From Fangia hongkongensis FSC776 = DSM 21703 (lineage in GTDB: Bacteria; Pseudomonadota; Gammaproteobacteria; Francisellales; Francisellaceae): a stretch of 64,000 bases of DNA. The stretch covers positions 24,781 to 88,780 of the forward strand of contig NZ_KB902251.1 in assembly GCF_000379445.1 (NCBI RefSeq), given 5' to 3'. Position 1 is the first letter of the stretch; each line of letters opens with the position of its first letter. The notes under the pieces are model-generated. The model did no database searches. It saw only the letters and a program-made list of their open reading frames with translations, and had not been told where the DNA came from. Positions 14,244-18,672 of the stretch are shown piece after piece. A program made the translations under genes and the position numbers.

Positions 14244-15611
14244 CTAGACAGGCTTAAAGATAGTTTGCGGGGTATCTGATTTAAATCGGCTATAAAGCTC
14301 AATAGCATAACGATCTGTCATGCTGGCAATAAAATCACAAATAACCCGCGCCCTATTTGCCTGATCATCTTTTGAGAAAGAGTAAAAAACTTCACCAACA
14401 TCTTCTGGGATAAGCGAAGTTTCTTCTTCTGTATCAATCAAAATATCAAATAGCGCTGAAATAATATCACGCCCGCGATAGCGAATAATGTTCATTTTAG
14501 GTGAGTTAATCACTGAGGCATAAATAAAATATTTCAACACCTCCACTTGCTTTTGCACCTCTTGTGTTAAAGAGACTTTTGATAAAACAGGGCACGCTGC
14601 ATCCAACGTAAATTGAACATTCGATATGTAATAATGCACCAAATTTGAAGTAAAGCGTGTGCGCAAATAGCTTGAATTTGCCAAAGACTGAGAGCGCTGA
14701 TAGATATCACTCATTGGCGCATTAAAGTTAATAATGCCATTAAATATAGATTTTAAAATCTCACGAATCTCACTAAGGCTTACTTTAAGCCCACCTAGAT
14801 GCGCTTCCTCCTGCACCTTCATTAAAAGATCATCACCAGCATTCACTATAGACAACGGATCAAGGAAACCACCTTTAAACGCATCCTCAATATCATAGGT
14901 TGAATATGCAATATCATCGGCAAGGTCCATAATATCACACTCGATCGTTTTAAATGCTTTTCCTTTATAATCCTCTGGCGAATAGGGGCTTAAGACATGC
15001 TTTTTGATATTGTGAACAAGTTGTTTTTCACTTGCATAATAGCCTTTTATCGGCGTATCAGATAAATTCACAATATAGGCAGGAATCGCATGATCATATT
15101 TTAAAAGTGATGCCAATGTACGATACGTTAAATTAAGCCCATAACGATTGTCCACTCCATCATAGACAGGCACATCACCCAAAAGAACTTTTTTTTCTGT
15201 TTTTGTGACCACTCGAAGCGTTTGTGCATTCCCTTCAAACCCACCATATTCACGCATTTTAGCATGAAGCGCCTTTTCACCATTATGCCCAAAAGGAGGA
15301 TGCCCAATGTCATGACAAAGCGCTGCTGTTTCAACTAAATCTGTGTCAATTTGCACTCCTGCATGAGCATCATTAACCATTGAAGCGATAGATTTGGCCA
15401 CCTGTGCAACTTCTAAAGAGTGTGTTAAACGATTACGAAAAAAATCACTCTCAACACAAGGGAAAATTTGCGTTTTACCCTGAAGCCTTCGAAATGATGC
15501 GCTATGGATCACGCGCGCATAGTCTCGTCTAAAAGGAGAGGCATGTGTTTTTTGCTCCGGTTCTTCAAGTGCCCGGTAATAGTCTTTTTTATGATATAGT
15601 ATACAGCTCAT
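14244..15611 (-). CDS. dgt: Deoxyguanosinetriphosphate triphosphohydrolase
   Basis: HD-domain dNTPase that hydrolyses dGTP (and in relatives other dNTPs) to the nucleoside and triphosphate, balancing dNTP pools. The 455 residues show SPFRRDYARVIHSASFRRLQ, then RNRLTHSLEVAQ with the first metal His, CHDIGHPPFGHNGE with the HD pair near residue 120, and MDLADDIAYSTYDIEDAF near residue 230, the fourth metal Asp. E. coli Dgt is about 505 residues; this is slightly shorter, closer to the dGTPase-like group. A long, structured region of 500 bp lies upstream. dinG precedes it on the same strand, so both genes act in nucleotide and DNA upkeep. Confidence 0.93.
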   Translation of the reverse strand: MSCILYHKKDYYRALEEPEQKTHASPFRRDYARVIHSASFRRLQGKTQIFPCVESDFFRNRLTHSLEVAQVAKSIASMVNDAHAGVQIDTDLVETAALCHDIGHPPFGHNGEKALHAKMREYGGFEGNAQTLRVVTKTEKKVLLGDVPVYDGVDNRYGLNLTYRTLASLLKYDHAIPAYIVNLSDTPIKGYYASEKQLVHNIKKHVLSPYSPEDYKGKAFKTIECDIMDLADDIAYSTYDIEDAFKGGFLDPLSIVNAGDDLLMKVQEEAHLGGLKVSLSEIREILKSIFNGIINFNAPMSDIYQRSQSLANSSYLRTRFTSNLVHYYISNVQFTLDAACPVLSKVSLTQEVQKQVEVLKYFIYASVINSPKMNIIRYRGRDIISALFDILIDTEEETSLIPEDVGEVFYSFSKDDQANRARVICDFIASMTDRYAIELYSRFKSDTPQTIFKPV

Positions 15612-15694: not shown

Positions 15695-15730
15695 TAGGTT
15701 TTTTTAAGTTTTCTTAAGTTTATCTTAAGT
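15695..15730 (+). repeat. Four direct repeats TTARGT at exact 10-bp spacing
   Basis: TTAGGT at 15695, then TTAAGT at 15705, 15715 and 15725: four near-identical hexamers each starting 10 bases after the last, so all face the same side of the helix. The last two read CTTAAGT. Direct half-sites at about one helical turn are typical of OmpR/PhoB-family response regulators; phased T-rich blocks also bend DNA. A weak -10 (TAGATT, 15732-15737) follows directly. Seen in sequence; binding is inference. Confidence 0.55.
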
Positions 15731-15744
15731 TTAGATTGAGATGA

Positions 15745-15927
15745 TGAACTCACTCAAGGAGAGTTGGTCTTACAGAGAACGCTTTTCTCTCTCCCTTCTC
15801 TTTCGGTATATCTGTGATATCGACCTCCTTGAAGCAAGTTTCAAAGTTTAAGACTATCTGACGGGGATTTCCCCCCTCCCTTCTCATCATCTAAACTCCC
15901 GTTGATAGTCTTATACCACTTTTTTTT
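15745..15927 (+). ncRNA. Candidate structured small RNA with two C/U-rich single-stranded loops
   Basis: Several complementary segments are present. TCAAGGAG (15754-15761) pairs with CTCCTTGA (15825-15832), enclosing AGAGAA/TTCTCT around 15775-15790 and a GGTATATC-TGT-GATATC hairpin near 15805-15820. A long stem pairs 15849-15865 with 15898-15913 (AAGACTATCTGACGGG against CCCGTTGATAGTCTT, one bulge), and eight T follow at 15920-15927, six bases after the stem. The decamer CTCCCTTCTC appears twice (15791-15800, 15876-15885), both predicted unpaired, one in the loop of the last stem. It is complementary to purine-rich ribosome binding sites. Upstream are the 10-bp repeats. Strand is uncertain, since stems fold either way and a TGGTATAAG on the reverse strand could make this a dgt leader. 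No match to 6S, tmRNA, SRP RNA or RNase P motifs was seen. Confidence 0.4.
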
Positions 15928-15947
15928 CACACCCAATACCCAATGAA

Positions 15948-16114
15948 TATACCACTCGCAAATCATTTTTCGGTGTTTAATGCTGAAGAAGTTTTTGATA
16001 GTTTTGAGTCATTGGATTGCAGGTAATAGCTGGGACTATTAGCAATATCCGATGACTCAAAAGAACAATAAATTCAATGGCAGAAATAGGGTAAAATGGT
16101 TTGCGAGTGGTATA
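15948..16114. mobile_element. MITE-like palindromic element, 167 bp
   Basis: The ends are inverted repeats of 22 bp with one mismatch (15948-15969 against 16093-16114). Inside, a second inverted repeat pairs 16002-16020 (TTTTGAGTCATTGGATTGC) with 16042-16062, and a small stem TAATAG/CTATTA lies at the centre. Flanks read TA on both sides if the repeat is taken as TACCACTCGC, consistent with the TA duplication of IS630/mariner-type transposases. No coding sequence is inside. It sits 4 bp beyond the dinG stop codon. The structure could instead be a large extragenic hairpin; finding more copies in the genome would decide. Confidence 0.5.
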
Positions 16115-16118
16115 AACA

Positions 16119-18194
16119 TCATTTTTTGATAGCAAAAGGCGGCAGCCCTGCTAAGAGCGCTTTGCCGTAGAATTTCTGCTTCAACCTTGAATCTAAAATA
16201 ATAATCTCGCCCACATCTGTTTCTTGGCGCACCAATCGTCCAACCATTTGCGTGAGTTTTAATGATGCTTGTGGCAATGAAATATCCATAAAAGGTTTTC
16301 GCCCTATTGATTCCAGCCATTCAGAGCGCGTCTTATCAATTGGATTGGTTGGGACTTGAAAGGGCAGCTTATGAATAATCAGTCTTGTTAAATAGGCTCC
16401 TGCCAAGTCTACCCCTTCAGAAAAACTATCGACACCAAAAATAACCGATGGTTTAAAACTATCAATTTTCTTTTTATGCAGTGCAATCATCATCTGCTTG
16501 GAGCGATCACCCTGCACCAACACACAACGTTTAATTTCAGCTGATAAAAGAGAGTAGACCCGCTCCATTGCGTAGATGCTTGTGAATAAAACAAGCGCGC
16601 CATCTGGATGACCTTTTAAATACTGCTCATTTAAAAGTGCTGCTGTCTCCTTGATATGATCTTCTTGTGCTTGTGGCATAAAACGCATATCTGGAATGGA
16701 CAATGTAGAGTTATGATAAGGAAGCGGCGAGGGTAAAAGGAGCGTCTTCGCATTATTCTTAAGTCCCGTTGCGTTTAAAAAGCGATCGAATTTGCCTAAG
16801 GAGCGAACCGTTGCTGAGCACAGAATTACACCATGTTGAACTTCTCCCCAAAACATTTTTTTTAGTAATGAGGCAGCCTCAACAGGGGAAGCATGAAGGT
16901 CATAATCTTCAAATTGATGGTGAGCCAGCAAATCATCTGGGCGTTTTTGCTGTCCTTTATCGGTTTCTTTTCCCTCTAATGATGCATGAGGCTGAAGCCA
17001 TTTAGCAACTGGAGGGACACTATTTGTATTTAACAAAAGCGTATAAAGTGATTGCAAATTTTGCGATCTTTCTAACAGAAAACCAAGTTGTGTGAAGGTT
17101 TTCTCAAGTGAGTCTTTCTTATGTATATCACTTGTTTCAGCAAAGTCCTCAAGCTTTCGCTTCAAACTCTCACATTCTTTTACATAATAATCAGCAGCTT
17201 TTTTGATACTCCCAGCCACTTCCAGCATTTCATCTGACATCGATTTGATGCGCCAGATAGCATCCTCTTTAGTTGCACTTTGATACAATGGGTGGAGCAT
17301 TTGTTGAAATGCAGTTAACGATTCAATTAATGATTTTTTAATAAGCTGCCAATTCTCACGCATATTCTTTTCAACAAGCTTTTGAGGCAGCGCATTTAAT
17401 AACTTATCAACATCATTTACCCATTTTTGTGACCCGATTAATGAGCTATAGGCCGAGAAAGCATCGAGCGCCTTATCTGGCAGATGGTGACATTCATCAA
17501 TGATATAAATGCTCTTTTCAAAAGCTGGCAAAATCGCCCCATCGCCTAAATTAAGATGCGCTAATAACAAACTATGGTTTACAACAATAATATCTTGATT
17601 TCTAAGCCCTGCTCTTTCAGTTAAAAAGGGGCAGGTTTTGTAGTATTCACAGCGCGAAAAAGAACAAGCATTGCTGCTATTGTAAATCTCCTGATTCAAT
17701 GCCTTTGAAATCGGCACCTCTAAATCATCAAAATCCCCACTCCAGTCTTTTTGATACAATCTATCAAGTTTCTCTGCCTCTTCGGTTAGTGCTGAATCAC
17801 TAGAATCAAAACTATGAAGCTTTCGCGGACACAGATAGCGTGATCGCCCTTTTGCCAAGGTATAAGAGAGACTGGGAGCATCTTTTTTATCCTCACCAAT
17901 AAGCGATTGGATAAAAGGCAAATCTTTATGAATCAGCTGTTCTTGAAGCGCAACTGTTGCCGTTGAAACGATTATATTTAGCTTCTCTTTTCCTTTAGAT
18001 TCACGATATTGGTTATATAAAATAGCGCCAAGTAAGTAGGCAAAACTTTTTCCTGTTGCTGTCGGGGCCTCAATGACTAGATTCTCAGCATTTATAAGCG
18101 CTGATTTCACGGCATTGACCATATTCAGCTGTGATTCACGAACGCTAAGTCCCGCTGATTGAAAAAGCGCTTTTAACTCTTTTTCATTCATCAT
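16119..18194 (-). CDS. dinG: ATP-dependent DNA helicase, DinG family
   Basis: Superfamily 2 iron-sulfur helicase (XPD/DinG) unwinding 5'-3', linked to R-loop and damage handling. About 691 residues. Walker A is EAPTATGKSFAYL near residue 42; the four iron-sulfur cysteines are visible as YLCPRKL, then NACSFSRCEYYKTCPF; the Walker B box is IIDECHH (DEAH-like) near 237; later motifs are VLFTSIYAMERV, FGVDSFSEGVDL and QMVGRLVRQETDVG. Starts are ambiguous: ATG codons occur at 18206, 18203, 18194 and 18191. AGGTG lies about 9 bases before 18194, which I chose. The start overlaps the msrC stop by 11 bp, so the two are co-transcribed. E. coli-type YoaA is the alternative name for this branch. Confidence 0.88.
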   Translation of the reverse strand: MMNEKELKALFQSAGLSVRESQLNMVNAVKSALINAENLVIEAPTATGKSFAYLLGAILYNQYRESKGKEKLNIIVSTATVALQEQLIHKDLPFIQSLIGEDKKDAPSLSYTLAKGRSRYLCPRKLHSFDSSDSALTEEAEKLDRLYQKDWSGDFDDLEVPISKALNQEIYNSSNACSFSRCEYYKTCPFLTERAGLRNQDIIVVNHSLLLAHLNLGDGAILPAFEKSIYIIDECHHLPDKALDAFSAYSSLIGSQKWVNDVDKLLNALPQKLVEKNMRENWQLIKKSLIESLTAFQQMLHPLYQSATKEDAIWRIKSMSDEMLEVAGSIKKAADYYVKECESLKRKLEDFAETSDIHKKDSLEKTFTQLGFLLERSQNLQSLYTLLLNTNSVPPVAKWLQPHASLEGKETDKGQQKRPDDLLAHHQFEDYDLHASPVEAASLLKKMFWGEVQHGVILCSATVRSLGKFDRFLNATGLKNNAKTLLLPSPLPYHNSTLSIPDMRFMPQAQEDHIKETAALLNEQYLKGHPDGALVLFTSIYAMERVYSLLSAEIKRCVLVQGDRSKQMMIALHKKKIDSFKPSVIFGVDSFSEGVDLAGAYLTRLIIHKLPFQVPTNPIDKTRSEWLESIGRKPFMDISLPQASLKLTQMVGRLVRQETDVGEIIILDSRLKQKFYGKALLAGLPPFAIKK

Positions 18195-18672
18195 TAATTG
18201 CATCACCTAATATGCTCAGAAGCCGCTCAAGATACTCTTTATCCAACTGATCAAAACAAGCCTTATCATCAGAGTCAATATCAAGTACAGCAATTAGTCT
18301 GTTACCAACCACCCACGGCACAACAATTTCAGAGACAGTGCTACTTGAGCAGGCGATATGATAAGGCAGAAGATTCACATCATCAACGATTTGTGTTTTT
18401 CTTTCACTCGCAGCTTTTCCACAAACCCCTCTATCAAATTGAATACTTAAACAGCCGTGCCCGCCTTGATAAGGCCCAACTTTCAGTAAACTATTACCAC
18501 TATGGCGATAAAAGCCCACCCAGTCAAAGTAGCTAAATGCAGCTTTAAGCTCACAACAAACCGTTGACATAATGCTAATCAGATCCTTCTCTTGATCTAA
18601 GATAAGCGGCACATTTTGCAGCAACGCTTGATATATAGAGTGTTTTTTTTCAGTTGAATACACACGGGACAT
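18184..18672 (-). CDS. msrC: Free methionine-(R)-sulfoxide reductase (GAF domain)
   Basis: A 162-residue single GAF domain protein of the fRMsr (YebR) family, which reduces free methionine-R-sulfoxide in the cytoplasm. Family residues are visible: FDWVGFYR, LLKVGPYQGGHGCLSI with one catalytic Cys near residue 79, RGVCGKAA with the second near 89, and PYHIACSSSTVSEIVVPW with the third near 113. SEIVVP and VLDIDSDD complete the substrate pocket. Start at 18672 agrees with family length. It precedes dinG with an 11-bp overlap, suggesting joint expression under oxidative or DNA stress. An extended -10 element lies 35 bases upstream. Confidence 0.9.
   Translation of the reverse strand: MSRVYSTEKKHSIYQALLQNVPLILDQEKDLISIMSTVCCELKAAFSYFDWVGFYRHSGNSLLKVGPYQGGHGCLSIQFDRGVCGKAASERKTQIVDDVNLLPYHIACSSSTVSEIVVPWVVGNRLIAVLDIDSDDKACFDQLDKEYLERLLSILGDAINDE

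Follow-up and report, generated by a model that had tools for sequence, protein, structure and literature searches.

The window, the whole stretch of 64,000 nucleotides of DNA analysed here, very probably contains a genuine small RNA gene on its + strand (15752-15917), as judged from the fold and promoter layout that it shares with related genomes. Its RNA is a new, uncatalogued family of a known kind of trans-encoded bacterial small RNA; a comparison with Rfam 15 gave no match at gathering score. In the full explanation, which we favour with somewhat better than even confidence, a PmrA-type regulator would control this stand-alone + strand RNA, and the RNA would silence selected mRNAs by pairing with them. 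The region in question (15745-15927, + strand) is intergenic and flanked by dgt (14244-15611, - strand) and dinG (16119-18206, - strand), two gene names that are backed by Pfam and NCBIfam; by its sequence it carries a promoter of its own, and no gene follows downstream on the same strand. Its features are the following:

15703-15708, + strand: extra half-site TTTAAG, upstream of the tandem box
15713-15729, + strand: PmrA-type tandem box CTTAAG-TTTAT-CTTAAG; every homologue has CTTAAG-N5-CTTAA(G/T) in this position
15740-15745, + strand: -10-like hexamer GATGAT, 10 nt past the box; position fixed in 8/8 homologues, sequence loosely TATAAT-like
15752, + strand: predicted start of transcription, at the first base of ACTCAA
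15754-15832, + strand: hairpin 1, from the fold; the same in L002, L003 and L030, with covariation
15784-15804, + strand: apical loop 1, with CTCCCTTCTC at 15791-15800; 21/23 alignment columns invariant in four representatives
15846-15916, + strand: hairpin 2; 12/14 counted pairs changed on both sides
15867-15896, + strand: apical loop 2, which contains CTCCCTTCTC (15876-15885) and then ATCATC; all homologues retain CCTTCTCATCAT
15920-15927, + strand: eight T, a possible intrinsic terminator tail 3 nt past hairpin 2; not conserved

Just past the T run, at 15948-16114, lies a near-palindromic, MITE-like repeat of ~167 bp with copies elsewhere in the genome that are 94-96% identical (L115, L119) and with many matches to its end. 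The best NCBIfam model for the dgt product is 'anti-phage deoxyguanosine triphosphatase', with 382 bits against a cut-off of 400.

The two copies of the decamer CTCCCTTCTC that the earlier note had reported are indeed present, and both are unpaired in the minimum-energy fold, where they occupy the apical loops, as the note had expected of single-stranded segments. The segment 15752-15917 (+ strand) folds with -48.5 kcal/mol (z -4.6), a value that none of 200 shuffled sequences equalled, and the longer span 15735-15935 reaches z -3.1 on the + strand versus z -2.15 on the - strand. The loops are 21-30 nt long, rich in C/U, and both contain CUCCCUUCUC. The stem of hairpin 2 is built from GTTTAAGACTATC and GATAGTCTTATAC and reaches 15916, which shortens to 3 nt the six-base gap formerly drawn between this stem and the T run. 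The relatives possess only short T-rich tails at the corresponding place, the run of eight T being a feature of the window genome only.

The RNA gene is present in the window genome, Facilibium subflavum (L002/L019) and six genomes of the Cysteiniphilum group (L003-L007, L030), with a single copy in each. This distribution emerged consistently from a DNA search across 31 relatives, from pattern searches of 30 family genomes and of a collection of genomes from 84,980 species, and from searches with covariance models; a match of the pattern in Bacteroidales (L016) looks like a chance occurrence within a gene. The other family genomes searched yielded no homologue, nor did three genomes from a second family of the order, and the covariance model has no member in 17 genomes of the best-sampled genus (g5, inferred to be Francisella). 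A search of 368 other genomes across the class, run with stricter filters under which weak matches can be lost, likewise gave no homologue. In Facilibium, the gene lies between dinG and dgt as it does in the window, while in Cysteiniphilum its neighbours are a ytxH-like gene, hpf and ptsN and, on the opposite side, a trpD-like or a different gene. Three genera hence carry the RNA gene, at two unrelated chromosomal positions. A mobile origin was considered and rejected in view of the single copy per genome and the lack of any phage or plasmid match.

When each homologue is folded alone, without any alignment, the same two hairpins are obtained with the motif copies in their apical loops (z -4.0 to -6.8). 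In the model-based alignment from which pairs were counted (A6), 94.5% of the cells are paired, compared with 29-44% when the partners are slid by 1-3 columns; double changes are present at 15 of 30 pairs, and the covariation score amounts to 0.449 versus 0.197 +/- 0.025 for shuffled and <=0.10 for slid versions, with RNAalifold counting 21 double-changed pairs on the same alignment. These covariation values derive from about three independent lineages and from an alignment fitted to a model that was itself built from two of them, and the folds obtained without alignment deserve more trust. The secondary structure is thus conserved with compensatory changes, and the loss of the pairs in related genomes, which the earlier note had named as grounds for abandoning the RNA gene, was looked for and not observed. 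Among the four representatives, the near-invariance of loop 1 compares with 23 of 80 invariant paired columns. Since the stems were rewritten while the loops stayed fixed, it is probably through its loops that the RNA works.

All eight homologues share one promoter layout: the box, 10 nt, a -10-like hexamer (GATGAT, as in the window, GATCAT, GATACT or AATACT), 6 nt, and ACTCAA, the first bases of hairpin 1. Because this geometry is fixed in every one of them, transcription is predicted to start at A15752 on the + strand, and not at 15745 as formerly assumed, positions 15740-15745 being the -10-like hexamer. The + strand is also favoured by the composition of the stems, in which 20 G-U cells outnumber 7 A-C cells. 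The half-sites and spacing of the Salmonella PmrA box, as defined previously (PMC3973317), fit the window-type box; the form CTTAAG-N5-XTTAAT is exact in Facilibium and Cysteiniphilum, and in the window the second half reads CTTAAG. The 10-bp phased repeats seen earlier upstream of the RNA are this PmrA-type box with extra half-sites upstream of it. Taken together, homologues in three genera, covariation, near-invariant loops and the fixed promoter geometry bear out the proposal that the + strand carries an RNA gene which is autonomous and regulated; its control by a PmrA-type regulator is probable.

The genome contains 21 strict boxes versus 7 for the reversed control; the 21 represent 18 distinct sites, three of which are read on both strands. 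Another copy of the box precedes a small conserved gene (L045, G000:C1:146218), with TATAAT 10 nt past the box, and a box-like repeat is present upstream of a secreted SH3-domain gene both in the window genome (L050, G000:C4:74650) and in a Cysteiniphilum-group genome (L008, G008:C11). From their sequences, these three boxes are candidate members of one regulon. Eleven proteins of the genome possess an OmpR-type DNA-binding domain. One of them, the response regulator L080 (G000:C34:22203), is an orphan with no adjacent kinase, its neighbours being a dnaX-like gene and a gene for a transporter; it scores best against the NCBIfam models PmrA and QseB, below the equivalog cut-offs of both, and has a full-length match to Klebsiella BasR. 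An orphan PmrA/QseB arrangement has been described for Francisella (PMC7588896).

The decamer occurs six times in the 2.95 Mb genome (both strands together). One of the four copies outside the window RNA is located 64 nt past another box, in the loop of a strong single hairpin (G000:C22:7583-7700; L059, L076, L090) with the stem ATGTGACAGG/CCTGTCACAT and z -6.4. The combination of a box and a CU-loop hairpin is therefore present twice in one genome, with stems that are not shared. With so few copies, two of them within the window RNA and one in this second box-plus-hairpin locus, the pair of decamers in the window RNA is not a matter of chance. The hairpin on contig C22 is likely a second small RNA, to judge from its sequence and fold; no convincing homologue was found in the family, its occurrence being restricted to the window genome. 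As a tentative idea, to which we give somewhat less than even chances, both RNAs might form a PmrA-controlled group whose members have unrelated stems but share the C/U loop, and through which the orphan PmrA/QseB regulator would act post-transcriptionally in these relatives of Francisella.

In the mechanism that we propose, a response regulator, putatively of the PmrA/QseB type, would bind the tandem CTTAAG box and recruit RNA polymerase to the -10 hexamer; transcription would then presumably proceed from A15752 and end past hairpin 2. The two rigid hairpins of the resulting RNA would present two large single-stranded C/U loops with their common CUCCCUUCUC, and a few selected mRNAs would most likely pair with these loops through AG-rich segments, as a rule their ribosome-binding sites, and so have their translation blocked. 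Action by base pairing is proposed because of the analogy with Listeria LhrC, and we rate it as rather probable.

Pairing with ribosome-binding sites resembling GAGAAGGGAG, as suggested by the earlier note, is plausible, but the target searches lend it no statistical support. Complementarity to ribosome-binding sites did not rise above background in either the pattern or the duplex test: in the four genomes covered by the enrichment test, GAAGGGAG-N-ATG was not enriched (12 versus 12 in the reversed control), and the loop duplexes at 372 start regions were no better than those formed with shuffled loops. Target prediction covered 464 kb, made up of the window and a sample of 400 kb, and none of the individual candidates proved to be a conserved target. 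The best single candidate was a fadL-like outer membrane gene (window 31038, - strand), the ribosome-binding site of which, AAAGAAAGGGAGGGG, pairs with the loops at -22 kcal/mol and with the C22 loop at -27 kcal/mol; this gene was dismissed as a target, as the pairing is weaker in Facilibium and absent in Cysteiniphilum. Sites with GATGATGAGAAG, a 12-nt match to loop 2, were set aside as well; outside the RNA itself most of them are codons for DDEK, and the site where nuoC meets nuoD is confined to the window genome. A small set of specific targets would escape both the enrichment and the duplex tests. A text pattern for Hfq and CsrA gave no match in the retrieved sequence pieces, a result that is uninformative for the genome.

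The main rival explanation, which we regard as unlikely, accepts the same small RNA and assigns its C/U loops to the binding of a protein, as a sponge or scaffold, in place of mRNAs. It would explain why the long loops are nearly invariant, it fits the absence of target enrichment, and the occurrence of one motif in two loops, and again at a second locus, speaks for it. However, the analysis identified no protein with a CU motif of this kind, and outside the 10-mer the loops differ from each other (CTCT.. and TTTC in loop 1 versus ATCATC in loop 2), which would be needless for a single protein site. Moreover, comparable CU loops elsewhere work by base pairing (PMC4132741).

Two further alternatives dispute the nature of the transcript itself. 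The functional RNA might stem from the - strand, either as a leader of dgt, as the earlier note had contemplated, or as an RNA whose AAGGGAG loops (ANGGA motif) titrate CsrA in the manner of CsrB/RsmZ; AGGGA is a CsrA-type motif. The - strand does fold, its loops contain AGGGA, and in the window as in Facilibium it has dgt downstream. Its fold is weaker than that of the + strand, though; the excess of G-U over A-C cells and the conserved promoter both point to the + strand, and loops with ANGGA are present on the - strand only, not on the strand predicted to be expressed. The dgt-leader reading does not hold, since in Cysteiniphilum the gene is not a neighbour of dgt, and overall we judge a functional - strand transcript to be very improbable. 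A translated small ORF in place of a non-coding RNA has a negligible chance of being the answer: ORFs of 71-101 aa with a TTG start do cross the region in Cysteiniphilum, but the window locus has no ORF of at least 50 aa on its + strand, single-base gaps relative to Facilibium break any common frame, and the stems show compensatory changes.

The + strand RNA represents a clear new small RNA family in a little-studied, Francisella-related clade, and the sequence allows its regulator, start, structure and contact surface to be predicted. Should the link to PmrA be true, this group's orphan PmrA/QseB regulator gains an RNA arm. The invariant loops on rewritten stems also offer a clean system for asking what keeps a long antisense loop constant.

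Among known RNAs, FtrB and FtrC of Francisella (PMC3405028) are small RNAs of about the same size from a related genus of the family; the covariance model of the window RNA has no member in the 17 genomes inferred to be Francisella, and in the part of the source considered here no CU-loop motif is described for FtrC. RsaE, RNAIII, SprD and FsrA, CU-rich UCCC small RNAs listed in PMC4132741, resemble the window RNA in a single-stranded C-rich motif that is complementary to purine-rich ribosome-binding sites, but they are Gram-positive RNAs without a relation detectable by Rfam, and the window motif is the longer one (CUCCCUUCUC in its extended loops). LhrC1-5 of Listeria monocytogenes, which are under two-component control and bind ribosome-binding sites through UCCC loop motifs (PMC4132741), differ from the window RNA in that they have no sequence relation to it (no Rfam match), are governed by LisR and not, as is probable here, by a PmrA/QseB-type regulator, and comprise five near-copies with proven targets as opposed to one conserved gene and one unrelated second locus. 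Nevertheless, the window RNA likewise carries a redundant UCCC-type C/U motif in single-stranded loops, is predicted to answer to a two-component response regulator, and belongs to a genome with more than one locus bearing the motif; by this analogy, LhrC appears to be its closest functional counterpart.
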